Positions 45,952 through 64,000 of a stretch of 64,000 bases of DNA are shown piece by piece (within the stretch, counting starts at the first letter, position 1; every line of letters starts with the position of its first letter). Made by a program: the position numbers and the translations under genes. The notes under the pieces were generated by a model. It saw only the letters and a list, made by a program, of their open reading frames with translations. It ran no database searches and was not told the origin of the DNA. The DNA is from Streptomyces sp. AM 4-1-1 (GTDB taxonomy: Bacteria > Actinomycetota > Actinomycetes > Streptomycetales > Streptomycetaceae). The stretch is taken from assembly GCF_029167625.1 (NCBI RefSeq), contig NZ_CP119145.1:7068001-7132000 (forward strand), read 5' to 3'.

Positions 45952-46073
45952 CACAGGCCTTTACGTCTTCACCGGCCGCGCAGCAAGGGAGCCCAAGCTA
46001 GTTCGGTCAACGGGACATTCGCTGCCCCGTTCTTCAGCCGGAAGATTTCAAGTCCAGTGAGACGGTCGTGATG

Positions 46074-47143
46074 CTATGAGGTTTGTGGTGCGGGTTCCCT
46101 GCGCTTGGCTGGGTCGTTGATCCATGCCTGCTGGGGTATCCGGGGTGGTCGGGGGCGGCGGCCGAAGCGTTCGGGGTGGCGGATGTATGCGTCGGCGAGG
46201 GTGACGGCCCGCTGGTCGCGGACCTCCTCGGCGGTGCCGAAGTGCACGCTGGCCGGTGTGTGCCAGCCGATGCCCGAGTGCCGGTGTTCGTGGTTGTAGT
46301 ACGCGATGAATGCCTCGAACCACTCGCGGGCATGGGCCAGCGAGTCGAATCGTTCGGGGTAGTCGGACATGTACTTCGTGGTCTTGAAGTGTGCCTCGCT
46401 GTAGGGGTTGTCGTTGGAGGTCTTCGGCCGCGAGTGCGACCGGGTGACGCCGAGGTCGACCAGCAGCTGCGAGACCCTCTTGGAGGTCATCGAGGTGCCG
46501 CGGTCGGCGTGCACGGTCTGGGGCACGATGCCGTTGCGGATGATGGTCTCGCGGATCAACTCCTCGGCCCGCACCGCTGATTCGGCCCGCTCAACGGTGT
46601 GGCCGACGATGTAGCGGCTGAAGATGTCGATGATGACGTAGGCGTGATACCAGGTGCCCTTGACCGGTCCGGCCGCCTTGGTGATGTCCCAGGTGAACAC
46701 CTGCGAGGGTCCGGTTGCGACCAGCTCGGGCACTGCTTTGGCGGGATGAGCGGCCTGCCGTCGGCGCTCACCGGACTGACCCTGCTCGCGCAGGATCCGG
46801 TACATCGTCGAGACGGAGCAGTAATAGCGGCCGGCGTCCAACTCGCGGGCCCAGATCTGGGCGGGCGCCAGTTCGGCGTACTCGTCGCTGTTCATCAGTT
46901 CCAGGACGGCAGAGCGCTCCTGGTCCGTCAGGGCCGAGGGCTGCACCTGCGCGTGGGAGCGGGGTGCGCGGACTGTCGGGGGCTTGAGGCTGCGATAGTG
47001 CGTGGCACGTGAGCGACCGGTCAGCCGACACGCGGCCGTGATGCCCAGCTGAACCTCGACGCCGGTGAACGCCTCGTCCACGACAGGGACTGCGGCAGGC
47101 TTCAGTCCGCGCTCTCGGAGATCATTTCCAAGAGCGCGGAAGC
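46074..47143 (-). CDS. IS3 OrfB (copy 2)
   Basis: The -1 frame after the slippery site is identical to copy 1, with the catalytic residues in TWDITKAAG, HADRGTSMT and YSEAHFKTT. It is intact. It is produced as an OrfAB fusion. Confidence 0.9.
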
Positions 47144-47485
47144 TTTTCCCATCACCTCGAGTGCGGCCCTGTTCCGGGCCAGGTCCTTCTCCAGCCGTGC
47201 CACCTGCTGCCGCAGTTTCTCGTTCTCCACCTCCGCGGCGGACTTCTTCCCACGGGCCGGGCTCGTGCGGCGGTCGACCAGGTTCTCCAGGGCCCGGGCG
47301 TCCCGGGCGGCCCGCCATTCCTTGACGTGCGAGTGGTAGAGCCGTTCCCGGCGCAGGACCGCGCCCTTCTCGTTCCTGGGCGCCGCGTCGTACTCAGCGA
47401 CGATCCGCAGCTTGTACTCCGAGGTGAAAGTGCGGCGCTTCGGCCTCGGTGCCGGGTCGGACCCGACCGGTTCAGTGCTGGTCAT
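47102..47485 (-). CDS. IS3 OrfA (copy 2)
   Basis: Identical in sequence to the OrfA of copy 1 (HTH plus leucine zipper, 127 residues). The frameshift heptamer GGGAAAA lies at 47144-47150 on the minus strand. Confidence 0.9.
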   Translation of the reverse strand: MTSTEPVGSDPAPRPKRRTFTSEYKLRIVAEYDAAPRNEKGAVLRRERLYHSHVKEWRAARDARALENLVDRRTSPARGKKSAAEVENEKLRQQVARLEKDLARNRAALEVMGKASALLEMISESAD

Positions 47486-47563
47486 AAGGGGCGATTCTCC
47501 TGTCCTACCCTCTCAGGCTAACCCGACAGAGCGGGATGTCTCACCCAAGGCTGGCAGAGAGGG

Positions 47564-48771: not shown

Positions 48772-48969
48772 ATGGCGGCAACAGGTCAGTCCGCGACCCA
48801 CTCCTTAGTCCGGAAAAGGGCATCTGGACTCACCGAACTCCTGGCCCGAGAACTCCGCGACCGCGGCCGCGAGGTCGTAGTCGAGCACCTGCACGTCCAT
48901 CTGCCGCGCGTCCTCAAGACGCCCGCCGACACCCGCACCGCCCACCCCGAGCAGGAGACCGCCCGATGA
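48772..48969 (+). pseudogene. 3' fragment of a small gene coupled to the 48966 gene
   Basis: The frame ASGLTELLARELRDRGREVV, EHLHVHLPRVLKTPADTR has coding bias, and its TGA overlaps the following ATG (ATGA at 48966-48969), the normal coupling seen in intact operons. The 5' part lacks a clear start and ribosome binding site, so it is probably truncated upstream. Its function is unknown. Confidence 0.4.
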
Positions 48970-49649
48970 TCCGTCGCATGTTCAGCCGTTGCGCCACCAC
49001 ATCACGCGCCGTCGCCCCCGAGGACCAGGCCGTCGTCGACGGATTCCGCGCGATGCTCGCCGCCGTCCGCAACCCGCAGCCCTGGACGCCCGACCTCGCC
49101 CAGGACATCGCCGTGAGGGTCGGGACGTTCATCGAGCGCGCGCACCCCCGCCCCGGCGACGATCAGGGCACCGAGACGATCGCCGTCTCCCTGGTCCACC
49201 CCGACACCCCGCACGCCGCGGCCTACCTCCACGGCCACCAGCTCGGTTACAACGCCAAGGGCTGGCTGCGCTGCGAGACAACCGCGATCCTCGGCACCTG
49301 GCAGCCGGCCTACGCAATGCTCACCCACGCCGCCGCCAACCTGCCCCTCCCCGCCGACATCGGCATGACGCCCGCCCACTACGGCGTCCACGTCGAAGCC
49401 CGCCGCGCCGACGGCACCGGCTACACCCTGCTGCGCCTCGGGCCGTACTTCCAGACCTGGGTCGCCTCCCACGACGCCGACCACCTCAACACCGAGCTCG
49501 CGGGCCAGGCGGCCACCGTCCTCCCCGGCTTCACCGTCACCGCGAAGAACGCGCTGTTCGACGTCAACGACCACGAGAGCTACACCGACCCGTACCTCAC
49601 CGACATCACCGCCCTCCTCGCCGACGCCATCGCGGAGGTGAACGCGTGA
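48966..49649 (+). CDS. Hypothetical protein (227 aa)
   Basis: ATG 48966 overlaps the upstream stop. The protein is mixed alpha/beta: VDGFRAMLAAVRNPQPWTP, RVGTFIERAHPRPGDDQGTE, TAAYLHGHQLGYNAKGW-like central strands, and LGPYFQTWVASHDADHLNTE. No catalytic motif or membrane helix is recognised. Its GTGA overlap with the next gene indicates a coupled pair. Related genes of this type occur on Streptomyces plasmids, but I cannot name a family. Confidence 0.6.
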   Translation: MIRRMFSRCATTSRAVAPEDQAVVDGFRAMLAAVRNPQPWTPDLAQDIAVRVGTFIERAHPRPGDDQGTETIAVSLVHPDTPHAAAYLHGHQLGYNAKGWLRCETTAILGTWQPAYAMLTHAAANLPLPADIGMTPAHYGVHVEARRADGTGYTLLRLGPYFQTWVASHDADHLNTELAGQAATVLPGFTVTAKNALFDVNDHESYTDPYLTDITALLADAIAEVNA

Positions 49650-50139
49650 CCACCACGCCCCTGTACGAGATCGAGACCAGCGAAGGCGACGACGGCACCA
49701 CACCCCGTCGAACAGCGGCTTCGTCACCCATCACGGCCTGAACATCGCCGGAATCGATGACGCCACCGAGGACCACCTCTACCCGGTCGCCTTCATCGTC
49801 CTCGGGCACCACCGGTGGGCCGACGCCATCGAGGGAGCCGCCGCATACATGGCCCATGTCCACACCTGGCGCAACCTCCACCTCTACCCGGGCGACGACC
49901 CCTCGGAGCTCATCCCTCGCATCCCGCGCGCCGTCCAGACATGGGGTGTGTTCTTACACCATCCCCACGCCGATCACAGGTGCGCCTGCGAGTGGGACGA
50001 CACCTGGCGCGTGGTCTGGGCACCCGCCACCGAACCCGGCGTCGTCCCGATCACCGCCCTGCGCCACCCCGCTGCCCCGGCGACCGCTGCCAGCATCCCC
50101 AACCCCGACGAAGGCGCCCCCGCTACCTGGGCGGCCTGA
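49646..50139 (+). pseudogene. Hypothetical protein with one frameshift in a C run (about 164 aa)
   Basis: From GTG 49646 the frame reads VTTTPLYEIETSEGDDGTTP, then stops within about 30 codons. If the CCCC run at 49703-49706 had one more C, the frame would continue through SNSGFVTHHGLNIAGIDDAT, HLYPVAFIVLGHHRWADAIE and HVHTWRNLHLYPGDDPSELI to the TGA at 50139, all with proper codon bias. I therefore regard it as one gene with a sequencing or true indel. A strong terminator follows. Confidence 0.6.
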
Positions 50140-50163
50140 CACACGCGACCGGCACGACAAAGA

Positions 50164-50205
50164 CCCGGCTTCCCCACTGACTGCGGGGAAGCCGGGCCTT
50201 TCCTC
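50164..50205. terminator. Perfect 12-bp stem terminator between convergent operons
   Basis: CCCGGCTTCCCC (50164-50175) and GGGGAAGCCGGG (50185-50196) pair around a 9-base loop, followed by CCTTTCCTCGTTCTT. It lies between the plus-strand 49646 gene and the minus-strand parB. Confidence 0.8.
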
Positions 50206-50260
50206 GTTCTTGGGTCTTCGCCAGGTCAAGACCACCTGCTCATTGCCCTCAACCGATCCG

Positions 50261-50280
50261 GTGTTGACCGCGGTCAACAC
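50261..50280. promoter_or_regulatory. parS-like: parS-like 20-bp palindrome, site 1 (downstream of parB)
   Basis: GTGTTGACCGCGGTCAACAC is a perfect palindrome found four times in 480 bases. This copy lies outside the parB reading frame, about 50 bases past its stop. Clustered identical palindromes next to parA-parB are the expected ParB-binding centromere. The motif differs from chromosomal parS (TGTTTCACGTGAAACA). Confidence 0.8.
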
Positions 50281-50332
50281 ACCGTGGGTGCTGCCACGAC
50301 GGGCCACGCTGATCGGGCCAGGAGGCGACCTG

Positions 50333-51531
50333 CTAGACGTGCTCTCGAAGAGCCTCGATCAGAGCATTCAGCTCGGCTGTAGAGAGAGCCGAAGCGATCG
50401 TCGCCGCTTGAGCTGCTGGCGTCTCCCCGAGCTCCTTCATCAGGACCTGCGCGTACTCCTCAGCCTCCCCGGTGTGCTCCGCCGAGCGACCCTGAGACGG
50501 CACGGACGACTGAGCGGGCGGTTTGGAGACCGAGGAGCCCGAGTTGGCTGACGCCTGGCGCGCGGGCACCGGCGGGGAGCGGAGGTGTTGACCGCGGTCA
50601 ACACCTCCGGCGCCTCGTCGCCCGGCTTCGTGCCTTCCGCCAACGACTCCGACGTGTTGACCGCGGTCAACACGGATGGCTGCCCATTCGTGGGGCCGCC
50701 CGCGCTGACGGTCTCCGTGTTGACCGCGGTCAACACGCCTCCGCTCTTGGCTGCCCGCAGCAGCTTCTTCTCTTCGTCCCGCTTCTGTGCTTCTGCCTCC
50801 CGGTGCGAGGCCAGGTGCTCCATGAGGTCGGCGCTGCTCAGACCTGGCTGAGCCTTGAGGCGACGAGCCAGCAGACGGCCTTCCCGTTCGGGCAGTACGC
50901 CGGCACTGAGCTTTTCCTGAATGCCTTCAGGCAGGGTGAGCAGGGCCAGCTGGTTGGTCACCCAGGCCTTGGACTTGCCCAGCCGCTCAGCCGCCCGAGT
51001 CTGGGCGCCGGCGTCGCCCTCTCCAGCGCAGACCTCTACCAGTGCTTGGACACCACGAGCCCGCTCGACGAGATCGAAGTCCTCACGATCGAGGTTCTCC
51101 TTGAGGAGAAAATCTACGAAGTCTTCCCGCGACGAGGCGAGATCGTTCCGCACCACGAAGTCGAGCGCCTCGAGCCCCACGTGATCCGCACTGCGGTAGC
51201 GGCGCTCCCCGTTCACGAGCACGTAGTCGGCCCCGCCGACGTGATCAGCGTGCTCGGGCCACAGGGACAGGTATGCATCGCGCGATACAGCGACACACGC
51301 TGCGAGCTGTACAGCCCGCAGCTCCTCACCGAAACGGGCCTTCTGCTCGTCCGTGCCGAAATTCCGCCGAGGGTTCAGGGGAGTGGGCTTCACCTCCCTC
51401 AGGCGGAGCCGCACCAGCTCGTACGACGGCACATCACCCTGCGCCACTGCTTTGGCCCGCCCACGGTCACTGCGACCGCGCGGCACCTTGTTGAACGATG
51501 ACCCAGTCCCCAGACGGTCCGCGGCCTTCAT
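50333..51531 (-). CDS. parB: ParB-family centromere-binding protein, one frameshift
   Basis: From ATG 51531 the protein has the ParB/Spo0J N-terminal nuclease-like fold (PTPLNPRRNFGTDEQKARFG, YVLVNGERRYRSADHVGLEA with the GERRYRS box) and an HTH (GAQTRAAERLGKSKAWVTNQ). Next is a linker with three VLTAVNT repeats written by the palindromes. At the run GGGG (plus strand 50574-50577) one base appears to be missing. With it, the frame continues SANSGSSVSKPPAQSSVPSQ and EEYAQVLMKELGETPAAQAA to a stop at 50333, giving about 399 residues. Its ATGA overlaps parA (51528-51531). It would bind the palindromes and activate ParA ATPase. Confidence 0.85.
50585..50736. promoter_or_regulatory. parS-like: parS-like palindromes, sites 2-4 (inside parB)
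   Basis: Three more identical 20-bp palindromes start at 50585, 50654 and 50717, spaced 69 and 63 bases (23 and 21 codons). Each therefore encodes the same heptapeptide VLTAVNT in ParB. The site at 50585 extends to a 28-bp palindrome (50581-50608). The DNA is thus serving both as protein code and as a probable centromere. Confidence 0.8.
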
Positions 51532-52682
51532 CCCTTCACCGCCAGAGCCACAGTCCGCATCGCCTCGGACTGCTCACAGTTCGGCGCAGAGGAAAGCAAC
51601 GGAGCCTTGAGACGGTTCGCTTCACGCTGCTCCTTCCGCTCAGGGACCACGGCCAGAACCGGCGGATCACCGATGGCCTTCCAGCTTTCGAGGGACGACG
51701 TAGCGATGAAGCCCTTGCGGCTGTCGTACATGTTGACGACGAACCCCAACTTGGCGATGGCCACGTCCAGGTCCTCCGAAAGGTCCTCGATCTGGTCGTA
51801 CAGCATGTCGTAGGCGTCGGCCGAGCTGTCCTCTGCCAACACCGGGATCACCACGCCTGACGCGCTGGCTTCCTCACCGTCCCGCGTGCGGGCGTAGTAG
51901 AGCGCCGTGTCCATCGAGTAGCCCAGGCTGGGCGGACAGTCGATGACGATGAAGTCGAACTCGCTCTCCAGCGGCTCCAGCGCCTTCTCGAGGGCGATCT
52001 CCTTGATACGAACATGACGCGTCGTCGCCAGCTTCGCATCCAGCAGGAACGCGTCCTTGCACCCGGGCAGGAGGAACAGCCGGCCGCCGAAAGCACCCTC
52101 TTCTATCGGCACCAGCAGGTCACGCAGCGCACCCTTTCCCTCGCCAAGCATGTGCTTGGCCAGACTGGGCTCATCGATGGCGAGCATTTCGTAGCCAAGC
52201 TGCTTGGTCAGATGGCACTGAGGGTCGAAGTCGACGAGTAGGACGCGCTGGCCGATCTCCGCGAGAGCCTCCGCCACACCGGCTGACGTCGCCGTCTTAC
52301 CGACACCGCCCTTCTGGTTCCCGAATACAAGACGCCGCGCACCGGTCGTGCGGGGGGCACGGCGGGGCGACGGGTGACTGTCGAGCCAAAGCCGGATCGA
52401 CTGGGCGATGCCCTGGTTGAACGGGATCCCTCGGGCCTTGCAGTCGTCCTTGAACTCCCCGTAAAGGCCTGTCGGGAGATACGTGGCGAACGAACCGCCG
52501 CCCGACGTGTCGACCTGAGGGCGAGGAGCGTCGGCGCTGCGCCAGGCATGGACGCCTTCCGTAACGGCATCTTTGATATCCACGCCCAACTCTGCGGCAC
52601 GGACCTTCAGTTCCTGTCGCAGCGGCGCGGGGAGCTTCGCAACTACCTTTTCCCGATCATCGGGACTGTATGGGGCGGTCAT
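51528..52682 (-). CDS. parA: ParA-family partition ATPase
   Basis: The 384-residue protein has an N-terminal DNA-binding extension of about 110 residues (KVVAKLPAPLRQELKVRAAE, LPTGLYGEFKDDCKARGIPF, two RHH-like blocks). The deviant Walker A motif RLVFGNQKGGVGKTATSAGV follows at about residues 118-137, then RVLLVDFDPQCHLTKQLG (A' motif) and FDFIVIDCPPSLGYSMDTAL (Walker B). It is a type Ia-like ParA that also could repress the operon through its N-terminus. It is complete. It lies first in the parA-parB operon. Confidence 0.93.
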   Translation of the reverse strand: MTAPYSPDDREKVVAKLPAPLRQELKVRAAELGVDIKDAVTEGVHAWRSADAPRPQVDTSGGGSFATYLPTGLYGEFKDDCKARGIPFNQGIAQSIRLWLDSHPSPRRAPRTTGARRLVFGNQKGGVGKTATSAGVAEALAEIGQRVLLVDFDPQCHLTKQLGYEMLAIDEPSLAKHMLGEGKGALRDLLVPIEEGAFGGRLFLLPGCKDAFLLDAKLATTRHVRIKEIALEKALEPLESEFDFIVIDCPPSLGYSMDTALYYARTRDGEEASASGVVIPVLAEDSSADAYDMLYDQIEDLSEDLDVAIAKLGFVVNMYDSRKGFIATSSLESWKAIGDPPVLAVVPERKEQREANRLKAPLLSSAPNCEQSEAMRTVALAVKG

Positions 52683-53100
52683 GCGGATACCTTACTCACC
52701 TATTGCGCGGGCGTAGCCGGACAACACTCGTCCTCACTCACTCCGTAATGCGGTAACTCCGTCGTGCTCGGGGTGCTCACAGCGACAGAGCGCTGGCCTA
52801 CCACCGGCACCTGAGACGTCGTGCCTGCCGATGTAACGCCAGATGACTCCGATGTGCCCCCATGGACGAGGTGATCTCGTAGACGCCGGGGGCACGGCGA
52901 ACGTCTTTGTTCCGTAAGCCGGGGCGGGGTGTGGTGCTGGAGGTCGGCGGTGAAGCGGGGTGTGCCCTTTGTCGCTCGGAGGTCGATAGCTCGCGCGCAT
53001 GGCGCCGCAAGAACTGAGCCACCTTCACCGAAACGCACTCGGACGCTGACAACGCAGGGATAGCATCCGCAGGTTCTGCACCTCGAGGGAAGGCGGAGGG
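52683..53100. other. 420-base intergenic region between parA and the KAP NTPase gene
   Basis: Divergent promoters for parA (leftward) and the NTPase gene (rightward) are expected here. Reading frames present have no coding bias and no family resemblance. A GGAAGGCGGAGGG ribosome-binding region precedes 53101. I found no palindrome like the four parS-like sites. Confidence 0.4.
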
Positions 53101-55932
53101 ATGCTGCGGCTGCGGGCCTGGCTGGAGCTATGGGCAGCGAGGGCCTTCGATTTCGTCGATGGTGAGGACAAAACGGGGATCTACCACCGGTGTGTGGAGT
53201 TCGCGGTTGATGGGCCTGCGACGGAGCGATTGCTCGGCAAGCGTGCGGGCGTAGACCGTGAGGCCGTTGTGGATCGGATGATGACGGCGCGGTACCGCCG
53301 CTACACCATCCTCCGCTGTCCCTCGCCCTTGCTCGACCGAGCGATCGAAGACCTGGCTGCGGCCCGGGATAAACACGAGCGAGCAGCACGAGCGACGCAG
53401 TGGAACTGGCGAGTGGTCTGCTCGCTGGTCGCCACCGTCTCGATGGTCCTGCTGATATTCAGTGGCCTGCTCGCTCTGCTCATCGCAGTTGTGGCGGCAG
53501 CTGTCTCGATGGTCGGGCTGTACATCTGGCGCGGGTATGCGCTGTGGTCCAACCTGAGGCAGTGCCTGATAGCAGCAGGGCTCAAAGGCGCCTGGCTCGT
53601 TCAGCGCATCGAGGTAGGACTGTGCGCTGCACGCTGGGGTGAAGAGCTGCTTGAGACAGGTACTGCTCCCGTGGTGGCCGACCTGGTCCGCCATATGCTG
53701 GGCGACGACCCCGACTCCCTCTTCATTCCGGACGACTACGAATGGGGCCTGCGCGCGCCTCGAGCGCCCGGCTTCGTCATCGAGAACGGGGCCCGGCGTC
53801 AACTCGAACGCAAGCTCACGCATCTTGAGGACGGCACCATCGCCGTCTGCGGACCGCGCGGTGCGGGCAAATCGACGCTGCTGGAGCAGTGCGTCAAGAA
53901 AGCCGGCTTTGGCGTGATCGTCCAGGCGCCGGCCACCTACGCTCCCCATGACTTCCTCCTGTCGCTGTCGGTCCAGCTGTGCGAAAAGTACATGCGGGCC
54001 CGGGGCTATGAGCCCACCGGTTTCGCGCGCCTGTCGCCCGCGCGCCGAGCACTGCGGCGAATATGGCTCCAGGTCAAACGGCTGAGCCGGTGGAGCTCCT
54101 TCGCGGTGCCCGCCACCGCCCTGGTGGTGCTGGGCCTGTCCGCCTCGATGCGGTCCTTCTACAAGCAGTACGCCACGTCCGCGTCGGACGCCGCGCACGC
54201 GTACACCGACGCGATTGGCCACGACGTCACGGCCATCTGGCAGGGCCACACCGTTGTCGCGAGCTTGGCCGTCACGATCGGCGGGATCGTCTGGTGGAAG
54301 TCACGGCATGAAGCCTGGCTGCCCCGCATGCTGGGTCGCCTGTGGATGCGCGGCGTCAGACCTATCGGTTTGCTCCTGGCCTGGGCATCCGCTGCCACTC
54401 TGCTGCTCGACGAACAGATACGCCAGCAGGCCCTAAACCTCCATATCGCCCAGCCCGAGGCTCTCTACCGCGCTGTCGGCTATGCAGGAGGGCTGCTGCT
54501 CGTGTGGTGGTTCTTGCGCTTCGTTCGTGATTCGGGAGTCGAGTTCCCTCTTGGAAGATGGCACATCTTCCTAGAGAGAATCTTCCGCCCGATCAGCGCC
54601 GCCGCAGGAATTTACTTGGTGTTCTTCCTCATCACGAACCCGCAGATACGGTCCTTACTGGCGGACCCAGAAAACCCGCTGCGACTGGCAGGGATTATCG
54701 CCGGAGTCCTGGTGTCGAAGTTGGGGGACTGGCAACCGCATGCGGAAGAACCCGAGTTGGTCACGCGATGCCGCAACCACCTCTACCGTCTTCAGACGAT
54801 CCAACAGGTGACCAACGGCGTGACCACGGGGGGCGCTGCCCAGATCCTGAGCCTGGGCACCAACCACTCCGCGTCTGTGTCCACAGTCCCCCCGAACTAC
54901 CCGGAGCTTGTTGAGGAATTCCGCGAACTGCTCAGGTCCATCGCCGTCGAGAGGACCGAAGCGGGCAGGACCGTCGTGATCGCCATCGACGAAGTAGACC
55001 GCTTGGGCGCGGACACCGATGCGCTCGCGTTCCTCCGGGAGATCAAAGCCATCCTGGGCGTTCCCCTGGTCCACTACTTGATCTCGGTCGCCGAGGACGT
55101 GGGAGCCGCCTTCGTCCGCAGGGGCCTTCCTCACAGGGACGCCACCGACAGTTCCCTGGACGACATCATCCATGTCCAGCCCAGCACCCTCAGCGACTCA
55201 CGCGCCATCCTGGCCAAGCGCTCACAGACACTGAAGGAACCACACATCCTGCTCGCCCACGCTCTGTCAGGCGGCATCCTGCGCGACCTGCTCCGCTATG
55301 GCCTGCAACTCCGCGAGACACAGGACAAGACCCAGTCCTACGAACTCACAGACATCTCGCGGCAACTCATTCTGGAAGAACTCGCGGAAACCTTCGCCGG
55401 CTTCCGGACCCTGCTGAGCAAACTGCAGTGGTCGCATGACACCAACGGCATCCTCGCCTCTTTCCGCACGCTCAGCAGCTACTTGCGCGACCCCTGTCCG
55501 TGCGTCGAAGCGGATGTGGTGCGCACGCTTGATCACTTCGCCTTTCACGCCTACGACGCCAGACCTCTTCTTGCGACCGTCGGCGACTCATCACATCGAC
55601 CACCCGACGAACCAGAGATCAGCAGCAGTGCACGCCAGCTCATCGACGAAGCATCCACGTACGCCTACTTCTCACTCACCCTGCTCGACATCTTCAGCAC
55701 CGACGGACTTGAGCGCCGTAAGCAACTGGCAGCCGAGCACGGCCAGGACGGCGATCCTGAACGGCTTGCCGACGCACGGCAAGAACTCGGGATATCGCCT
55801 TACAGCGCCCGGCCTCTGATCGACAGCATTCGCAAGGCTTGGGCACTGTCTCTTGGACCGGCCCCCGGTACTCGTCTCCCGGCATCGACCGTGAGGTGTC
55901 TCCGCCACAGAAGCTGCCCGAACATCCCATGA
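53101..55932 (+). CDS. KAP-family P-loop NTPase with membrane segments (943 aa)
   Basis: Walker A is at about residues 250-258 (IAVCGPRGAGKSTLLEQC) and Walker B at about 622-632 (TVVIAIDEVDRLGADTDALA). In KAP NTPases the long insertion between them carries transmembrane helices. Here I count about six hydrophobic segments: one pair near 105-145 (SMVLLIFSGLLALLIAVVAA) before Walker A, and others near 335-355, 380-400, 420-440, 455-475 and 500-525. The C-terminal 250 residues are helical and soluble. KAP proteins are membrane-associated, often plasmid-borne, and some act in phage defence. Adjacent parAB suggests only plasmid linkage. Confidence 0.8.
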   Translation: MLRLRAWLELWAARAFDFVDGEDKTGIYHRCVEFAVDGPATERLLGKRAGVDREAVVDRMMTARYRRYTILRCPSPLLDRAIEDLAAARDKHERAARATQWNWRVVCSLVATVSMVLLIFSGLLALLIAVVAAAVSMVGLYIWRGYALWSNLRQCLIAAGLKGAWLVQRIEVGLCAARWGEELLETGTAPVVADLVRHMLGDDPDSLFIPDDYEWGLRAPRAPGFVIENGARRQLERKLTHLEDGTIAVCGPRGAGKSTLLEQCVKKAGFGVIVQAPATYAPHDFLLSLSVQLCEKYMRARGYEPTGFARLSPARRALRRIWLQVKRLSRWSSFAVPATALVVLGLSASMRSFYKQYATSASDAAHAYTDAIGHDVTAIWQGHTVVASLAVTIGGIVWWKSRHEAWLPRMLGRLWMRGVRPIGLLLAWASAATLLLDEQIRQQALNLHIAQPEALYRAVGYAGGLLLVWWFLRFVRDSGVEFPLGRWHIFLERIFRPISAAAGIYLVFFLITNPQIRSLLADPENPLRLAGIIAGVLVSKLGDWQPHAEEPELVTRCRNHLYRLQTIQQVTNGVTTGGAAQILSLGTNHSASVSTVPPNYPELVEEFRELLRSIAVERTEAGRTVVIAIDEVDRLGADTDALAFLREIKAILGVPLVHYLISVAEDVGAAFVRRGLPHRDATDSSLDDIIHVQPSTLSDSRAILAKRSQTLKEPHILLAHALSGGILRDLLRYGLQLRETQDKTQSYELTDISRQLILEELAETFAGFRTLLSKLQWSHDTNGILASFRTLSSYLRDPCPCVEADVVRTLDHFAFHAYDARPLLATVGDSSHRPPDEPEISSSARQLIDEASTYAYFSLTLLDIFSTDGLERRKQLAAEHGQDGDPERLADARQELGISPYSARPLIDSIRKAWALSLGPAPGTRLPASTVRCLRHRSCPNIP

Positions 55933-56102
55933 GGATCGACCGCCGGAGCGCAGCATTTACATGGCCCTAGTGGTGTCCGCCGGGCGGGCACGGCGTCGCC
56001 ACGAGCGCCCGCTGTGCGGGAGCGGTGGTGAAGTTCCGGTGAAGTCTTCCGCCTCACGGGATCGTGCCTTTTCGCAGGTCAGAGCCGGTGTCTGCTGTGA
56101 CG

Positions 56103-56942
56103 ATGCTGAGTGTCGCGAAGATCCAGAGGCGTAACGCGTGGCGGTACTACATACGCGGAGTGGCGTTCGGGGACGGCCGCCGTCCGGCCGGACAGTCGTT
56201 GAAGGACGCCCAGGAGCTGGCCGGGCTCCCACCGGGACGGTGGCTGGGGCGTGGTCTGCGTGCGCTGGGACTCACCGAGGGCGCGGAGGTGTCCGAGCGT
56301 CAGCTGGAGCTGCTGTTCGGCGAGGGCCGGCACCCGGACGCCGACCGCATCGAGCGCGGCCTCCTGGACGACGGCGTCGACGCGACGACGGCCCGTCGGC
56401 CTACCGTGTTGGGGCAGCCGATCGAGGAGATCGAGGCCCGCAAGCAGACTCCGCTGCTCGGCATGGACTTCACGTTCCGGCCGCAGGCGTCGCTGGTCGT
56501 GCTGTGGGCGCTGGGCGATGCCACCGTTCGCCGGGTCATCGAGCGGGCCCACGAGCGGGCCGTCGCCACGGCGTTGCGCTGGCTGGAGGATGAGGTTGTC
56601 GAGACCCGGTGGGCGTCAGACCGCGGCCGCGCGAAGACGCCGGCGCTCGTGGTCGCCGCCTTCCGTCACTTCGACAACCGCGACGGGCTGCTGCTCCTGC
56701 ACGAGCACTGCCTGATCCTCAACCGCGTCCAGCGCCTGGGCGCCGACGGCGTTCCGGTCTGGGGTGCTCTGGACACCTACCGCCTCTACCAGAACGTGGT
56801 GGCCGCCGGGACGCTGTACACCTTGGCGATGACGACCGAGGTGTGCGAGGCGCTCGGGGGCGTGTTGGGGCGGAGTGCAGGCCCGTATTGCCAGGTGGCG
56901 CGTCCTGCGGGTCCAGCGCCCATGGACCACGCGAGTTCGTAG
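56103..56942 (+). pseudogene. MobF (TraA/TrwC-type) relaxase, N-terminal fragment
   Basis: The 280 residues from ATG 56103 match the start of actinobacterial MobF relaxases: MLSVAKIQRRNAWRYYIRGV, LPPGRWLGRGLRALGLTEG, then PLLGMDFTFRPQASLVVLWA and the metal-site region LVVAAFRHFDNRDGLLLLHE HCLILN (HxEHC). Relaxases of this class run over 1000 residues with a helicase domain. Here family sequence stops near 56850 (after TTEVCEAL), and the frame ends at 56942. The gene was cut where the recombinase module begins. Confidence 0.7.
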
Positions 56943-57084
56943 ATGCCGGATGCGCGCTGGACGCGCTTGACTGGTGGAGTACGTACGGGTTCGTTCGTGG
57001 CCGTCTGGCGTGTCGACGTCGCATTTCAGCTGGTAGATCGGCGTGCTGGGCCCGTTCACTCGATGGTGTGAGATCTCCGCAATA

Positions 57085-57103
57085 ACTCGCAGATTCTGCG
57101 AGT
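57085..57103. promoter_or_regulatory. 19-bp palindrome upstream of the recombinase gene
   Basis: ACTCGCAGATTCTGCGAGT is a perfect palindrome about a central T, located 80 bases before the recombinase ATG. Half-sites reappear nearby (CCGCAATAA before it, CCGTAATCTGCGG after it). It may be an operator for the HTH protein of this module or a recombination core. Confidence 0.55.
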
Positions 57104-57182
57104 GATCGCCGTAATCTGCGGCTTTGTGTCGGATCTCGAAAGTCGCACCCTGTCGCTCGTACGCACCGTGCCGGAGCCAGGC

Positions 57183-58316
57183 ATGCCGGTGGACCCGGCC
57201 TCGGTGTCGGTCGAGGCCGGGCTCGCTGACGTTGTGACGCTTCAGCGGCGCCGGCAGGCAAGGATCTCGGCGCACGACGAGGAGAGCTTCTTCCTGGACA
57301 CGCTGTCGGAGTATCAGTGGGCCCGGGACGCGGCGGGGCTGGCGCAGGAGACGCTGGATGGGCTGATCAAGCCGGTGATTGAGGTCTGTGAGTTCTACGG
57401 CACGGTGCCGTGGCAACTCTCTTCCCGCGAGGTCGACCGGTACTTCGCCGGGCCGGGGAAGCGGGCCCAGTCGACGATGCGGTACAAGATCGGCAAGATC
57501 GACCGGTACTTCGCGTTCCTGGAGCAGCGGTACGCGGGCGAGATTATGAGCCGCTTCGGGGCTGTGGTCGAGTCGCCGATCGATCCGTTCAACAGGCCCC
57601 GGCACCGAGGCGACTTCGGGCTGAGAATCCCGCCGTCGCAGGCGGCGATGAAGATGTTCTTCGGCCGCTGGCGCGAGGACCTGCCCCGGGCGCGGAAGTA
57701 CCTGGTCGCCTGCCGCGACTACGTGATGACGAAGATCGCCTACTTGTCGGGCGTCCGTGCGGCGGAGTTGTGCGGCGTCTGCATGGGGGACGTGCACTGG
57801 GAGCACGGTCAGTGGGGCCGGTTCGTCGTCCTGGGCAAGGGCGCGAGCGGTTCGGGACCGCGGCCGCGCGAGGCGTACCTGTTCCAGGAGGGCCGGGCTC
57901 TGCTGTGGTGGTACATCGAGCAGATCCGGGGCGAGTTCGGTGATGATGCCGAGCACCCGCGGGCGCCGCTGTGGCCGTCGGAGCGCAAGCCGACGGCGAT
58001 CGCGGCGCTGAACCTTCCGATCGCGCCGGCGATCGTGCCCTCGACGTTCCGTCGCGCCCTGCACAGCGCGGCGGCGAGCTACCTGAGCGGGCCGGTCACC
58101 GACCTTTTCCCGCACCTTCTCCGGCACGCGTGCGCGACCCACAACTACGAGCGCGGGATGACGTTGTGGGAGGTACAGAAGGTCCTCGGACACGCCTGGG
58201 CAACCACGACTCTTCGGTACATGGCGACCGCGCAGGCCGATCCTGAGCACGCGAACGTGGAGGCCAGCTCCCGGGCGGCCCGACGACTGGTGATGGACAA
58301 GGGGAACCTGAGGTGA
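57183..58316 (+). CDS. Tyrosine recombinase (first gene of a three-gene module)
   Basis: The ATG at 57183 has GGAG 8 bases upstream; a GTG at 57102 would add 27 residues. The 377-residue protein has an N-terminal SAM-like region (LDTLSEYQWARDAAGLAQET, STMRYKIGKIDRYFAFLEQR) and a full catalytic set: YLSGVRAAELCGVCMGDVHW (Arg I), VVLGKGASGSGPRPREAYLF (Lys), DLFPHLLRHACATHNYERG (H-x-x-R box), VQKVLGHAWATTTLRYMATA (His/Trp and Tyr nucleophile). It is likely active. Its TGA overlaps the HTH start (58313), so the module is translationally coupled. Confidence 0.85.
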   Translation: MPVDPASVSVEAGLADVVTLQRRRQARISAHDEESFFLDTLSEYQWARDAAGLAQETLDGLIKPVIEVCEFYGTVPWQLSSREVDRYFAGPGKRAQSTMRYKIGKIDRYFAFLEQRYAGEIMSRFGAVVESPIDPFNRPRHRGDFGLRIPPSQAAMKMFFGRWREDLPRARKYLVACRDYVMTKIAYLSGVRAAELCGVCMGDVHWEHGQWGRFVVLGKGASGSGPRPREAYLFQEGRALLWWYIEQIRGEFGDDAEHPRAPLWPSERKPTAIAALNLPIAPAIVPSTFRRALHSAAASYLSGPVTDLFPHLLRHACATHNYERGMTLWEVQKVLGHAWATTTLRYMATAQADPEHANVEASSRAARRLVMDKGNLR

Positions 58317-58657
58317 AGTGGAATCTGCGGATGGTGGCCGCGCAGCGCGATCTGTGGCGGCCGCCCGAGGTACTAGCTGCGTTCCGGCAGGTCGGGTTCA
58401 ACCCGTCGCTGAGCAAGGTCGCCGCGCTGTGGGGCGGCACTCCGGTCACGGTGCGACTGGAGGACCTGGACCTGATGTGCGCCGCGCTGGGCTGCACCGT
58501 CGCGGATCTGCTGCAGGCCGAGCCCCTCGCCGGAACCCAGGCGCTGCCGGAGGAAGGGGAACGGACGGCCGACGGCGCGGAATTGCCGTCGGGGCCGGTG
58601 CGGCCGGTGCCGGGAAGCCGCCGGGGGAGTGGGCCGCGCCCGCTCCCGCCGAGCTGA
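58313..58657 (+). CDS. Small HTH protein of the recombinase module (114 aa)
   Basis: GTG 58313 overlaps the recombinase stop. The first 75 residues form an XRE/Cro-type helix-turn-helix (WRPPEVLAAFRQVGFNPSLS, KVAALWGGTPVTVRLEDLDL, MCAALGCTVADLLQAEPL). The rest is a Pro/Gly/Arg-rich tail. It could control module expression by binding the palindrome upstream, or act as an accessory factor like TnpC of Tn554-type elements. Confidence 0.75.
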   Translation: MKWNLRMVAAQRDLWRPPEVLAAFRQVGFNPSLSKVAALWGGTPVTVRLEDLDLMCAALGCTVADLLQAEPLAGTQALPEEGERTADGAELPSGPVRPVPGSRRGSGPRPLPPS

Positions 58658-58663
58658 GCGCCG

Positions 58664-60987
58664 GTGGCCGCGGACCGGGCAACGGCCCGGAGCTGCGCGG
58701 ACTGTCTGGGCTGGGTCGTCCTCAACCAGCGGGGGCCTGCGCCGGGTGCAGGCGCTGGCGACAGCACTACCGCGAGCGGGGAACGTGTCCGCGGTGCCGG
58801 CACGAGCGGCTGCTGAACTCCGACGGTCTGTGCCGCTCATGCCTGCAGGCGATCCGGCTGCTGGACGACGCCGAGTGGGCCCTGGGCATCGAGGGGGCAC
58901 CGCCGCGTAACCTCCAGCTGACAGTCGGCGTCTATCACGACCGCGCGGACTCAGCCCGCCAGCTGAGCCGGGCCGGCGGCACCGGTCCGCGGACCAGCGA
59001 GGTGTGGAACCTCAGACTCCGGCAGCAGCGCGCGGGCACCGAGCAGCGGCCCGCGGTGCTGGAGCCGGGCGCGTGGGGGCAGATCCCGCTGTTCACGATC
59101 CCCAGGACTCTGACCGCGGACACGGCCCGGGCGGTTGCGGGCCGTCCGGTGCCCGGGTGGGAGAAAGCCCAGGCAGTGCTGGAGGAGATCGCCGCCGAAC
59201 AAGGGCTGAGCCGCGGGAACCGCTACCGCAAGGCCGCGCTGCTGCGACTCGCGCTGGCGATCCGCGCGGCCGAAGGCACCTGGCTGCTGCCCGAGGTACT
59301 CCTGCGGGACCTGCCCGCCGGCCGCAACACCATCCGCCTCGTTCTCCAGCGGGCCGGGCTGCTGGCCTCCGAGCCGGAACCCCTGCGACTGTTCCCAGCA
59401 GTCCGCCGCCCACCCCGGACCGTGGCCGGCCGGGTGCCCTGGTGCCGGACGCCGCATTCGTGTGCGGACTGCCAGGCGTGGATGCCCTCTGGCCAGTACG
59501 GTTCCCGCTGCACTCCCTGTCAGCACTGGCACGCCAAGCTGGCGCGGAGCACCTGCACACGCTGCCACCGGCGGGAACTCCCGCTGCGGAAGGGCCGCTG
59601 CCGCGGCTGCCGCCCGTACCGTCTCCTCGACGACGCCCAGCCCGCCACCACCCGGTACACACAGCTGATGGTCGACGTGCCCGTCGGAGGATCCGGACCG
59701 CCCCCGCCGATCCCGGTCGACGAACCGTTCCAACCGGGGCTGCTACCCGCGCCGGTGCACACCGCTGCCGGGCAGGAGCAGCTGTTTGCCATCCGGCGCG
59801 ACTGGACGCGGCTGCTGTCGGGCCTCCAGGGCCGGAACACGGCCGACCTGGGGCTGACCGGGACGACTGCACGGCTGGTCGAGGACTTCAGCCGGGTTCT
59901 GCACGAGCGGCAGTCACCCGGCCGCGACAGCAACATCCGCACCCTGAGCATCCTCGTCTATTGGTGCGGCGCCGAAGGGGCCATCTCCGAACGGGACATC
60001 CACGAGCTTGCCCGGACCGGACCGGGCCTCAGAGCCAAGACCGTCTGCCAGTTCCTGCGCGACCGGGGCCTTCTTCTGGAGGACCCCGACCTCCACCGCG
60101 ATGTCGATCTGGCGTGGATCGAAGACACCATCGCCGCGATGCCGGAGGCCCTCGCTGGCGAGGTAGGGCAGTGGGTGAAGGTGCTGCGAAGCCGGGGCCG
60201 CCATGAAGGGGAGACCCGCGGCTACGACGCGATCCGCCCGTACCTCGCCTCTGTCCAGCCGGTGCTCACCGATTGGGCGGAGGCAGGCCTGCTCTCGCTT
60301 CGAGAGATCACCCGGCGCCACGTCGACGCGGCCGTGGACGGCCATGCCGGACGTGCCCGCCGGCAGCTCGCCCTCGCCCTGCGCAGCCTGTTCAGGACGC
60401 TGAAGCGCGAACGGGTGGTTTTCCGCGACCCTGCCCAGCACCTTCGCGTCGGGAACCCGACAGGGATCCCGAAGCCGGTCCGCAGCGACCTGCTGGCCAA
60501 CGCGTTGCAGCAGACGAAGACCCCGCTCGGGCGCATGGTCCTTGTCCTGGCCGCTGTTCACGCCGTGCCCGTCCATGAACTCCGCACGATTCTGACGTGC
60601 GACCTGGACCTTGCACGCGGCACCCTCGTCATCCGGCGCGGCCTTCGACGGCACACCCTTTACCTGGAGGAACTCACCCACCGGATCACCGCCGACTGGC
60701 TGGACTACCGCCACGGTCGCTGGCCCGCCTCGACCAACCCTCGCCTGCTCGTCAGCCAGAGATCGGCACTCGACCCCGACCATCCCGCAGTCAGCAAGAC
60801 CCTGCTCCGCGACGACCTGCCCCAAGGGCTCACCCTGGTCGGCCTGCGCCAGGACCGCATCCTCAACGAAGCCGCCGAAGCCGCCGACCCTCTCCGGCTG
60901 ATGAGGCTCTTCGGGATCACGGAGAAGACCGCCATGCACTACGTCACCGTCGCCCACCCGGAGCGCACGGCCAAGCTGCCGAGGTGA
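58664..60987 (+). CDS. Large zinc-finger protein with degenerate recombinase-like C-terminus, one frameshift
   Basis: GTG 58664 opens VAADRATARSCADCLGWVVL. At the GGGGG run 58731-58735 one extra G would join it to ACAGCRRWRQHYRERGTCPR, giving an array of C-x-x-C fingers (CADC, CAGC, CPRC, CRSC). The full protein would be about 774 residues. A second finger cluster lies near residues 265-320 (CADCQAWMPSGQYGSRCTPC, STCTRCHRRELPLRKGRCRG). The C-terminal 300 residues are helical like a tyrosine recombinase (RHVDAAVDGHAGRARRQLAL, PVHELRTILTCDLDLARG, GLRQDRILNEAAEAADPLRL, KTAMHYVTVAHPERT), with a terminal Tyr but no clear H-x-x-R. It is probably a DNA-binding partner of the active recombinase. Confidence 0.65.
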
Positions 60988-61258
60988 AGCGGGCCGTCAG
61001 CCTTCCAGGGGATCTGCATGCCAGGGGGCGTCGGCTCGGGTGGGGCGGGCACCGGCGGCGATCCGCAGTACGTACACCGGCCGTTAGTCGTAGGGCCTTA
61101 TCTGCATCTGTTAAGTGCAACGGCTGGCCACAAACCCATAGCTTGTGCAGGCACATCAGGCACGTTCCTCGCCGCCGAGGCGAGAGGATCGGCACGATAG
61201 GGGCACGGACGAGGCACTCGAGCGGAGCGAGGACGAGGGACCTCCTCAGCGACGACTA

Positions 61259-62077
61259 ATGGCGATCTCTGAAAACGGCCGTGTTGTCGGCGCAGCCTTC
61301 TACAGTTCCGTCATGTCCAAATATCAACGGCTCCAAATGAATCGAAAGTACATGCTGGTCGAGTTCCCGGCCGGCACCCACCTCGACCACTCCCGTGCCT
61401 CCTCCGGCGGTATGCGGGGTACCGCCCGCGATGACCGGGACAACTCGCTCGTTGCCCAGGCCGAACTCTTCGACGCCGACGACCGGTACGACGAGGGCTA
61501 CGGGGACGGCCTAAGGAACCTCCTCGTCAACTGCGCCACCGACATTGCAGTTGAGGTCGCTCAAACCGTGACGGTCGCCGCCGTGGAGGTTGCCACCCCG
61601 TACCTCAAGGAGGGGGCACGCCGATTCAAGGAGAAGCTGCGACGCAGGCCCAAGGACGCCCCGGCCGCTGAGGTGGTACAGGAGACTGCCCCCGAGGGGC
61701 CGACTGCGTCTGGTCTCCGACCGGTGACTGCTGCCGCCAACGGCCGCGACCAAGTGGACCTCGTCCTGCGTGCCGACCAGGGTGACGCCAATATGCAGGC
61801 TGCGTTGGAGCGAATCAACACGCGCGCGGCCGAGACATATGGCATCGCCGCGCACTACTCCGCCAGCCTGCCCGCGGCAGACGTGGTCGGCGAGGCCATG
61901 CGCCAGGCGCTGGCAGCAGCCGCGCCCGGCTACGTCGCCGCCGCCCTTGAACGCCTCGCCTTCGACGACGAGCTCGGCCTGACCCCCGCGCAGCAGAAGC
62001 GTCTGCGGGGTTGTGCTGCGGAGCTCGACCCCGGTGTGGTCGAAGACCTCACCGGCGCCAATGCCCCGCTCGCGTAG
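61259..62077 (+). CDS. Hypothetical protein (272 aa)
   Basis: ATG 61259 is my choice; ATG 61313 is an alternative, and upstream in-frame codons look non-coding. The sequence has a short globular start (KYMLVEFPAGTHLDHSRASS), an amphipathic segment VNCATDIAVEVAQTVTVAAVEVATPYL, a basic EKLRRRPK stretch, and a helical acidic C-terminal half (AADVVGEAMRQALAAAAPGY, FDDELGLTPAQQKRLRGCAA). No domain is recognised. It precedes the AlbA_2-type gene by 150 bases in the same direction. Confidence 0.6.
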   Translation: MAISENGRVVGAAFYSSVMSKYQRLQMNRKYMLVEFPAGTHLDHSRASSGGMRGTARDDRDNSLVAQAELFDADDRYDEGYGDGLRNLLVNCATDIAVEVAQTVTVAAVEVATPYLKEGARRFKEKLRRRPKDAPAAEVVQETAPEGPTASGLRPVTAAANGRDQVDLVLRADQGDANMQAALERINTRAAETYGIAAHYSASLPAADVVGEAMRQALAAAAPGYVAAALERLAFDDELGLTPAQQKRLRGCAAELDPGVVEDLTGANAPLA

Positions 62078-62227
62078 CCCGGACGCTCCGGGGGCGAGAG
62101 CGGCCGCTGCGCATTCGGCCCCCGGTCGGGCGGATCCCGGCCGGCGGCGCTGCCGTCCTGGAGCTACTGGTCCCTTCGTGGCAGCTTCAGGAGGACAGGG
62201 CACAGAGGGCTTCCCTAAGCTTGCGCC

Positions 62228-63496
62228 ATGCCTTTCACGCCACTTCACCGCATACTCGGGCTCGCGCCTGGGCCACTGACCGGTGACATCCTGGACGCCG
62301 CCGTAACAGCTGGCGTGACGGAACACAGCGACTTGGACTGGAAGTCCGAGCTGCCGCCCGCCAAAGGTCTGCCGCAGACAGACTTCCCGAAGGATGTCGC
62401 GGCCATGGCGAACAGCGGCGGCGGTGTGATCGTTTACGGCGTACAAGAGACGCAGAAGGCGGCGACTAGCCGCGTCGATGTCGGCGAGTTCGATGAGGGC
62501 CACGAGCGGGCACTGCGAAGCGCCGCGATCACTGCGATCTCTCCGCCAGTGTTCGGGCTGGGTGTGCACCGTGTGGGCGAGGCAGGGAACAGGGCCGTGG
62601 TGGTGGAGATCCCGGCTAGCGTCGACGGTCCGCACCTGATCTATCGGCACGACTATTTTGGCGCTCCCGTCCGCAACGACGCCGACACGGTATGGATGAA
62701 GGAACGCCAGATCGAGGCCATGTACCGTGCTCGCTTCGACGAGCGCCGCCACGCGACCGAGGCCCTGGACTCGCTGTTCACCGAAGCCGCCGCCGGGCGC
62801 GACAGCCGCAAGCGGGCGTGGCTGATCGCGGTTGCCCACCCGCGGCTCCCTCTCGTTCGCGAGAGGCTGACGCGCGACCAGGCGCAGAAGGTGATGTCCA
62901 AGGCAGAGAGCCTTGCCTTGATGTACGCGGGGCGGGGTGGTGTTCACCCCCTGGAGAGCGTGAACCGGCTCAACCCTCGCCCTGGCCTGCGCCGGTGGGT
63001 CCTGGTGAACACGGCAGCGGCCGCCTACTCCTTGTGGAAGGAGGCGTGGGCCACCATCCACCACGACGGATCGGTCACCCTGGCGGCCGCTGTGGGCGGA
63101 CACCGGCGTGCTGCTTCGGGCGCTGAGGGCGGGGAGTTCTTCGAGGGCCGCCACGTCGAGTCCTCTGCCATCGAGTGCTCGATCGCGGACATGATGGCGT
63201 TGGTCCGAGCGACTGCGGACCTGACCGGTGCCGGCGAGTACGACGTGCGTGTCGGAGTCGAGTGGGCTGGCGAAGGGCCGCTGACAATTCTGACCCGGGA
63301 CACCATGGGCTTCGTTTACGACGAGGTGTCGACCCCTCTGCATCGGTATACGCCTGTCGAGACGACTGTGAATGCAGTTGCTTCTGACCCGGACTTTTTC
63401 TGGCAGGTGCACGACCTGGCGCAGGACTGCGTGAACCAGGGCGGTGTGTCGAACGTTCTGATGATCCGCCCTCCAGAGCGTGACGGGTCGGCGTAG
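62228..63496 (+). CDS. AlbA_2/Schlafen-type putative nucleic-acid-binding protein (422 aa)
   Basis: Residues 30-170 form the AlbA_2 domain: DLDWKSELPPAKGLPQTDFP, KDVAAMANSGGGVIVYGVQE (the conserved ANSxGG box), then RAVVVEIPASVDGPHLIYRH and PVRNDADTVWMKERQIEAMY. The last segment corresponds to the R/Y-containing end of this family. The C-terminal 250 residues are not recognised (RKRAWLIAVAHPRLPLVRER, EGGEFFEGRHVESSAIECSI, TRDTMGFVYDEVSTPLHRYT). It is the same domain class as the frameshifted gene at 17.6-19.0 kb. Stand-alone AlbA_2 proteins are often found in defence islands. Confidence 0.8.
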   Translation: MPFTPLHRILGLAPGPLTGDILDAAVTAGVTEHSDLDWKSELPPAKGLPQTDFPKDVAAMANSGGGVIVYGVQETQKAATSRVDVGEFDEGHERALRSAAITAISPPVFGLGVHRVGEAGNRAVVVEIPASVDGPHLIYRHDYFGAPVRNDADTVWMKERQIEAMYRARFDERRHATEALDSLFTEAAAGRDSRKRAWLIAVAHPRLPLVRERLTRDQAQKVMSKAESLALMYAGRGGVHPLESVNRLNPRPGLRRWVLVNTAAAAYSLWKEAWATIHHDGSVTLAAAVGGHRRAASGAEGGEFFEGRHVESSAIECSIADMMALVRATADLTGAGEYDVRVGVEWAGEGPLTILTRDTMGFVYDEVSTPLHRYTPVETTVNAVASDPDFFWQVHDLAQDCVNQGGVSNVLMIRPPERDGSA

Positions 63497-63907
63497 CTGA
63501 GCTGCTCCCTGCGGGCCTGCTGTTACCGATTCGTTCGTCCCAGAAGCCGGTGCGAGCGATGGCGTCGGCGGTGACAGGTGGGGTGCGGTCGACAAGGAGA
63601 GGGTGGGGACGGGACCCGCGGTCTCCTTCTTGCGGGAGCCGGTTCGTGGCTACAGTCCAGGCCATGGCTTCTCCCGAGGCACTCGCAGCGCGCGCACTTG
63701 CCCAGGCCGCGGTGAAGCTGGCGCAGAGAAAGACCGCCTGCCCCGGGCCGCTGCCGGGGCAGGTCATGGCGCCTCGCATCTGAGGCGTCCATCGCGCCAT
63801 GACCAGCACCGCTCGGCCCTCCGCCCAGCACTGCGAGCCTGACTCGACAGCCGTCCTGGACGCTGCAAACTGCTGACTGCCCGGCGAAGTTCTGGGATCA
63901 TCGGCTG
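63497..63907. other. No supported gene (410 bases)
   Basis: A 39-codon frame from ATG 63664 (MASPEALAARALAQAAVKLA) has coding-like bias but a weak ribosome binding site and no homologue I know; I do not call it. CCCCGGGCCGCTGCCGGGGC near 63738 could form a weak hairpin. Confidence 0.35.
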
Positions 63908-64000
63908 ATGGTCAGCAGCAGGTACCGCTCGGGACTTCGGCAGCAGCTGGACGCTGTCGTCTCGCGCCACCTCAGCGGGAACACGCACGCCACCCTCAAC
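63908..64000 (+). CDS. Possible N-terminal end of a gene running off the window
   Basis: From ATG 63908 the frame stays open to the window end (VSSRYRSGLRQQLDAVVSRH, LSGNTHATLN). It has high third-position GC but no strong ribosome binding site, so it is only a candidate. Confidence 0.3.
   Translation, partial: MVSSRYRSGLRQQLDAVVSRHLSGNTHATLN

Follow-up and report, generated by a model that had tools for sequence, protein, structure and literature searches.

A three-gene module of Streptomyces sp. AM 4-1-1 is probably (at a rough probability of 0.8, judged from sequence) the recombination module of a site-selective, cargo-carrying transposon of the tyrosine recombinase type. The module lies in a window of 64,000 nucleotides, the whole stretch of DNA analysed here, which covers bases 7,068,001-7,132,000 of a 7.17-Mb contig; the genome also has a second contig of 296 kb. 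It consists of genes for a tyrosine recombinase, a small helix-turn-helix (HTH) protein and a large protein with Cys clusters, together called the trio. The case for a mobile element is strong; how the three proteins share the work is something that we infer. An earlier note on this DNA had proposed the module as a mobile system, and defined ends, an empty site and movement between plasmids all bear this out. Beyond the window trio and its twin in an inverted repeat, the same genome has two further trios, one on the second contig (called C) and one on the chromosome (called D). The features that define the element are as follows.

56972..56992, plus strand: element left end TGGTGGAGTACGTACGGGTTC, at the sharp start of the sequence shared by 10 trio-bearing sequences
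57085..57103, no strand: 19-bp palindrome ACTCGCAGATTCTGCGAGT in the leader, read from the sequence
57102..58316, plus strand: tyrosine recombinase, 404 amino acids (PF00589, E 2e-15), with a start possibly at 57189
58313..58657, plus strand: small HTH protein, 114 amino acids, HTH_26 of Cro/C1 type (PF13443, E 5.3e-8)
58664..60987, plus strand: large protein, 774 amino acids where intact, with two Cys clusters, a helical middle and a predicted C-terminal tyrosine recombinase fold
66980-66994 (window-coordinates, beyond the window): element right end GAACCTGCGCGCTTC

The 10 trio-bearing sequences share DNA from T(A/G)GTGGAGTACG on, about 130 bp before the recombinase start in the alignment, and show at least four unrelated kinds of flank to the left of this point. 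The left end has one match in the window, against 0.02 expected (≤3 mismatches). An empty site was found in the S. liliifuscus plasmid NZ_CP066832, which has an uninterrupted copy of the gene that holds the trio in plasmid pFRL4. This gene belongs to the Mom family (PF25680, E 3.9e-19). Compared with NZ_CP066832, pFRL4 contains a single clean insert of 13.3 kb with flanks of 99.9 and 99.7% identity, so the comparison with an unoccupied site that the earlier note had suggested does define the ends. After this comparison, the idea that the conserved upstream DNA is a resolution site without mobility was rejected. The right end of pFRL4, GGGAACCCGCGCGCTTC, repeats the left arm CGCGCGGGTTCCC in inverted and shortened form. 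That the right end might be a near-exact copy of the left one was also considered and rejected, as no such copy was found in the window or the scanned loci. The right end follows the cargo and ends with GCGCGCTTC, and further GAACCCG/CGGGTTC motifs lie inside it with similar spacing in most copies, as read by eye. The window copy continues past the module end at 60987 to 66994, spanning 56,972-66,994 (10,023 bp) and reaching about 3 kb beyond the window. It holds a 1.53-kb insertion sequence, which is present in three identical copies (window 23018-24543, 46037-47563 and window-coordinates 64229-65758).

Twelve stretches were scanned for ends, comprising nine plasmids and three copies from this genome; the twin of the window copy in the inverted repeat was excluded. 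All 12 showed one left end and 11 showed one right end, while a Markov simulation (six replicates of the same 527,760 bases) gave 0 left and 1.7 right ends as expected numbers. These counts are to be read with the origin of the end patterns, which were drawn partly from the scanned sequences themselves; the left pattern was widened to take in D. Two other checks count more than the simulation: right ends lie where the target gene resumes, and both ends occur in nine more of 20 loci inspected (L083, L084, L088, L091, L094, L098, L102, L107 and L114). These nine loci span 3.8-9.1 kb with at most one mismatch at either end, and the trio is interrupted in L091 and L114. In L091 (4797-13927), about 3.6 kb of other DNA parts the recombinase gene from the HTH and large genes. 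A right-end candidate in L087 with 2 mismatches was not counted as a delimited element. The delimited elements range in length from 5,047 to 34,243 bp, and their right motif ends with CTTC in 11/11. Among 392 Streptomyces genomes, the left end was found exactly in 12 and a reversed control pattern in one.

Neither the comparison of pFRL4 with the empty plasmid nor the junctions of 11 elements revealed a target duplication. In plasmid pSHJG1, the flanks read by eye as an uninterrupted RRQRL motif if CTTC is counted as part of the element; they join without added bases and therefore indicate no target duplication. As judged from these junctions, the element has fixed, different ends and inserts precisely, at particular sites in a small number of genes, without duplicating its target.

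Pairwise comparisons showed that identity breaks off at the ends. For example, the window element and that of NBC_01456 are 99.3-99.6% identical inside, with 51 and 82% identity in the 200-bp flanks. The S. xanthophaeus and NBC_00582 elements share 95-97% inside, with flanks of 57 and 54%. C and pFRL5 share 89.9% over the first 4.0 kb, with flanks of 55 and 53%. In the elements of pFRL4 and pSHJG1, the first 4.1 kb are 95.6% identical, after which the cargo differs; they occupy different targets, with flanks of 49 and 52%. By these comparisons, the element has moved between plasmids and exchanged cargo.

The target in the window is a small gene, of which one part lies immediately left of the element.

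56879..56971, minus strand: 3' part of the interrupted small target gene (tblastn and DNA match to the uninterrupted copy in NZ_CP108083)

Residues 48-78 of this gene were found by tblastn at 56971-56879, and residues 1-50 at window-coordinates 67135-66986 to the right. The uninterrupted gene adjoins mobF in NZ_CP108083. It matches no Pfam family above the cut-off, and a RelE-like label was dropped as Pfam gives it no support. To the left of the element lies a truncated mobF copy (window 56103-56858; 252 of 637 residues, 93% identical to NBC_00257), and to its right, at window-coordinates 67495-69375, there is a nearly complete mobF (70% identical). The truncated copy is additional and lies outside the element. 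The earlier note had the module directly abutting a truncated relaxase gene and inserted into it. Both statements had to be given up: there are 113 bp between the mobF break (56858) and the element end (56972), including the 93-bp piece of the small gene, and the gene that is split is this neighbour of mobF. In two other loci (L057:8001-8166 and L058:8001-8166), left-end remnants lie in the same small target gene and are followed by an IS6 transposase gene, and the trio is gone.

Other elements have entered other genes. Mom-type targets, recognised by left-flank similarity to the pFRL4 gene, were found in pSCL3, NBC_00582, S. xanthophaeus, C and a remnant in pFRL5, and the pSHJG1 target is the RRQRL gene. 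In a target survey, the flanks of 17 loci were translated and eight recognisable-looking flanks were picked by eye for Pfam. Six of the eight represent a Tn3 transposase entered at profile position 127-128 (D, L094, L100, L102, L103 and L105), one is IstB (L107) and one GGDEF (L084). The L098 flank, among the remaining loci, resembles the Tn3 set by eye.

The gene order recombinase-HTH-large given in the earlier note was confirmed, with frames at 57102-58316 and 58313-58657 (4-base overlap) and a large frame that runs to 60987. Its reading of a full R-K-H-R-H-Y set in the recombinase also holds: besides the PF00589 match, the catalytic residues R219, K246, H338, R341, H364 and Y373 are invariant in 14/14 aligned relatives. 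The plasmid copy of the recombinase is annotated as a shorter site-specific integrase (375 amino acids). An HTH gene is annotated at the same place in the trio-bearing plasmids examined, and the small protein has a weak match to a phage repressor family in addition to HTH_26. The leader palindrome is partly conserved in the alignment of trio-bearing sequences, exact in some rows and altered in others, and may be where the HTH or the large protein binds.

The large protein was described in the earlier note as having about 774 residues and two Cys clusters. The clusters are present, but the frame is broken in this genome: the start at 58664 and the main frame are out of frame with each other, and in both copies at the chromosome ends the break lies within the first Cys cluster. 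Copies with an intact frame are found elsewhere. The protein was also said to keep Tyr and lose H-x-x-R. Tyr is kept and the His is lost, but the Arg of H-x-x-R is kept; this Arg and the Tyr, Tyr760, are invariant in 19/19 aligned sequences. Read by eye against a XerD line, the main family lacks the first Arg, replaced mostly by Pro, and both His. In a structure model, the last ~285 residues form a tyrosine recombinase fold (mean pLDDT 62, pTM 0.30; the C-terminal part mostly 70-89 with weak loops). Together with a weak integrase-profile match (E 0.0018), the model indicates that the large protein has the core-binding and catalytic domain fold of the tyrosine recombinase superfamily; it thus appears not to come from an unrelated enzyme family. 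The large protein could instead be a second, unorthodox catalytic recombinase and no dead partner. The invariant second Arg and Tyr would fit this, as would a GLRPGE stretch seen by eye at the place of the first Arg in the pNOCA01 member. The first Arg and both His are needed in known tyrosine recombinases, however, and their loss in the main family makes a second catalytic enzyme unlikely.

The trio is conserved elsewhere, a point that the earlier note had set as a check. Whole or partial matches to the large protein were found in 74/199 Streptomyces genomes and 99/72,556 plasmid records, and in none of 50,697 phage records. A two-peptide-pattern scan of 84,980 species genomes gave 70 loci. 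Most carriers are Streptomyces, and others include Kitasatospora, Nocardia and Actinomadura. A second search, made with an alignment and aimed at more remote large proteins, retrieved the same 30 as before. Among 19 loci with a full-length large gene, 13 have the recombinase and HTH genes directly upstream in order, 12 of these with a left end, and the other six miss one or both upstream genes. A second subfamily has a large protein of ~500 residues, 33-36% recombinase identity and the same gene order in 12/12 loci, two of which are 99.9% identical to each other. It occurs in Amycolatopsis, Kutzneria, Sciscionella, Saccharopolyspora and metagenome-assembled genomes (one binned as Chloroflexi, one as Rhodospirillales); no clear element ends were found for this distant Amycolatopsis-type subfamily. 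The distant-subfamily trio of pNOCA01 is flanked by genes for an integral membrane protein and a type II secretion F-family protein. Since the order recurs in 13/19 and 12/12 loci, it is not due to chance. In many other loci the large gene is present only as fragments, and some of these loci have a right-end match; they are probably decayed copies.

In the present genome, window 48,962-64,000 recurs inverted near the opposite end of the contig with 99.93% identity and is therefore part of a terminal inverted repeat. The inner boundary of this repeat is window 48962, and the repeat runs on beyond the window. The trio is present in both copies, and the twin shows extra single-base differences, mostly in single-base runs, as long-read errors would leave. 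Trio C shares 87% identity with the window trio in the recombinase and 56% in the large protein, and trio D shares 69% and 38%. Window 29535-30695 and L010:15664-20000 are repetitive DNA, with many staggered matches linking the window to chromosome bases 7,025-7,030 kb.

Three cargo genes were recognised in the window part of the element.

61313..62077, plus strand: cargo gene of unknown function, corresponding to OIU91_RS43065 of NZ_CP109457 by a 99.2% DNA match; no Pfam family
62228..63496, plus strand: cargo gene with a Schlafen AlbA_2 domain (PF04326, E 3.9e-9)
63908..64000, plus strand: start of the last cargo gene, whose plasmid copy matches AbiJ_NTD3 and, weakly, DUF559

Beyond the window, the AbiJ_NTD3 gene is interrupted by the third copy of the 1.53-kb insertion sequence. 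PADLOC found nothing in the plasmid copies of the three cargo genes. The annotated cargo of other elements includes arsenic, mercury, cadmium and copper genes, fluoride export and enolase genes, a polyketide synthase, and LamG- and RICIN-domain proteins. In YIM 121038, where the right end was not located, asparagine synthase-like and lasso-peptide genes were found. A cargo gene of D (L010:8318-9136) matches Hypoth_ymh and PADLOC PD-Lambda-3_B. Some elements carry or adjoin additional trio-like genes. For example, the pPZG101 element (L079:2600-7453) encodes two successive large proteins after one recombinase and one HTH gene. In pFRL5 (L077:2738-6431), a second, distant trio of recombinase, HTH_26 and a 763-amino-acid protein lies beside the first; the 763-amino-acid protein has many C-x2-C pairs and matches no Pfam family. 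The large protein of the first pFRL5 trio, used as a query in three plasmids, gave no match. In pSHJG1, another recombinase/small/large trio (L061:16573-20079) follows the first element, starting ~345 bp beyond its right end.

We propose the following working model. With help from the large protein, the catalytic recombinase would bind the CGGGTTC arms that lie inverted at the two ends. The large protein may sit in the synapse through its recombinase fold without cleaving, and its Cys clusters, which putatively bind zinc, may contact DNA or choose the target. Recombination of left and right ends would yield a circle whose joint is the substrate for integration. The predicted circle joint of pFRL4 is GAACCCGCGCG-CTTC-TAGTGGAGTA-CGCGCGGGTTC, in which two CGGGTTC arms would surround a 14-base spacer. 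The HTH protein may control the operon or set the direction of the reaction. The GAACCCG/CGGGTTC motifs of the right end and the leader palindrome are candidate accessory sites for the HTH or the large protein.

Several results weigh against a site-selective transposon working in this way. The circle joint was sought in 392 Streptomyces genomes and matched in 20, all with 2 mismatches, and the reversed control matched in 13. Flank identification covers eight of the 17 surveyed loci, and the target sites show no strong common sequence by eye. YIM 121038 has no right end within 49 kb, and two further loci (L097 and L114) have CTTT instead of CTTC. Profile comparison did not link the large protein to its partner recombinase (hhalign probability 0.4%), so the case for a recombinase fold in the large protein is carried by the structure model and the weak integrase-profile match.

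The element could also be a diverged member of a described tyrosine recombinase transposon group, either the Tn554 family with its actinobacterial relatives or SE, GInt or RIT. Such elements follow the same plan, with recombination genes at one end, cargo and insertion into chosen sites, and recombinase-fold partners without the full motif occur in SE (Tfp) and GInt (GinC) in the parts of the literature available. Van Houdt et al. (2012) defined a Tn554-related class of transposons in actinobacteria, which pair a long recombinase with one of normal size. According to the accessible part of that work (PMC3414803), the long recombinase has 611-828 amino acids with a C-terminal catalytic motif and lies next to a recombinase of ~350 amino acids. 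Both systems thus have a short and an abnormally long protein on actinobacterial plasmids, and the length of our large protein fits this range. However, the long protein of that class has a catalytic motif, and the large protein here has no such set. Plasmid pNOCA01 carries both kinds, which allows a direct comparison. The pair at 109,873-113,510, which we read as the one in the published table from its gene sizes and a like pair in pRHL2, consists of two adjacent integrase-annotated genes with no HTH gene between them. Its 797-amino-acid long protein matches PF00589 and has R-H-R-H-Y by eye. The other kind is a trio of recombinase, HTH_26 and a large protein without a Pfam family, and PF00589 is thus matched only by the published kind of large protein. 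The window-type large protein is related to that of the pNOCA01 trio (BLASTP E 1e-35) but not to the published long protein (best E 1.1). The element also has a single catalytic recombinase: no second integrase gene is annotated within the 13.3-kb pFRL4 element, and D holds the trio and one Hypoth_ymh gene. Membership of a described group is therefore quite improbable.

The trio could alternatively serve plasmid resolution or maintenance and be moved passively with its plasmid. Matches in 99 plasmid records and no phage record, and the position of the window copy within the terminal inverted repeat, agree with this. The exact ends, the empty site, the differing targets, the identity jumps at the ends and the cargo between trio and right end make it very improbable. 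That the trio belongs to an integrative and mobilizable or conjugative element (IME/ICE), crossing between cells by its own or a borrowed relaxase, is scarcely credible: the MobF relaxase fragment and the nearly complete mobF adjoin the window element, but both lie outside its ends, and between the ends no relaxase or conjugation gene is annotated in the pFRL4 element or was found in the window element.

As a site-selective transposon, the element explains the entry, by precise insertion, of genes for metal resistance, fluoride resistance, polyketides and defence-like functions into Streptomyces plasmids and a chromosome end, and its exact end signatures allow such islands to be annotated. Several recombinase transposons have a partner protein with the recombinase fold but no active site, and the reason for this could be studied in the present system, which is pared down to one active enzyme and one such partner. 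We recognised no publication that describes this trio, with subscription literature mostly outside the search; the accessible part of PMC8138268 contains nothing on it.

Five groups, ICE/IME, SE, GInt, RIT and Tn554, are tabulated in the part of PMC10214605 available, and the portions of PMC10214605 and PMC5385486 accessible describe a recombinase-fold protein without the full motif alongside two catalytic enzymes in SE and GInt. The features given below for each group are likewise those found in the accessible parts of the works cited. The present element resembles SE in its left-end recombination operon, imperfect inverted end repeats, few target sites, lack of obvious transfer genes and single non-catalytic recombinase-fold protein, Tfp in SE (PMC10214605). 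SE differs in its two RHRY recombinases (IntA and IntB), Tfp and Srap, its hosts in Gammaproteobacteria and its 6-bp footprint (PMC10214605), whereas the present element has one RHRY recombinase, HTH_26 and a Cys-cluster partner, chiefly in Actinomycetota. SE are strand-biased circularizing integrative elements whose circles have a 6-bp fingerprint and whose left end does not give back an empty site; at the right junction here, all 11 delimited elements show a constant CTTC and no variable fingerprint. GInt shares an operon conserved at one end, cargo, a weakly conserved other end and a third protein without the first Arg (PMC5385486). However, it has three recombinase-type proteins (ginABC) and GinD, with direct imperfect end repeats of 10-11 nt (PMC5385486), in contrast to one recombinase, one recombinase-fold protein and no target repeat here. 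RIT also has three tightly packed genes, but a possible catalytic motif occurs in all three RIT families (PMC3414803) and here in one protein of three. The likeness to Tn554 drawn in the earlier note stands in concept, and the lack of target duplication is shared with Tn554, for which it is reported (by a reference title in PMC10214605). The catalytic make-up differs, as the Tn554 family has two RHRY recombinases (TnpA and TnpB) and the present element has one RHRY protein. The trio defines a well-delimited new family of tyrosine recombinase transposons, of the same general kind as Tn554, SE and GInt but with another parts list. We see an even chance that it represents a sixth prokaryotic group of such transposons across Actinomycetota, in which one catalytic recombinase and an HTH protein would act with a dead, zinc-binding recombinase-fold partner that picks its landing sites among conserved coding motifs in other mobile DNA (Tn3 transposase, IstB and plasmid genes).

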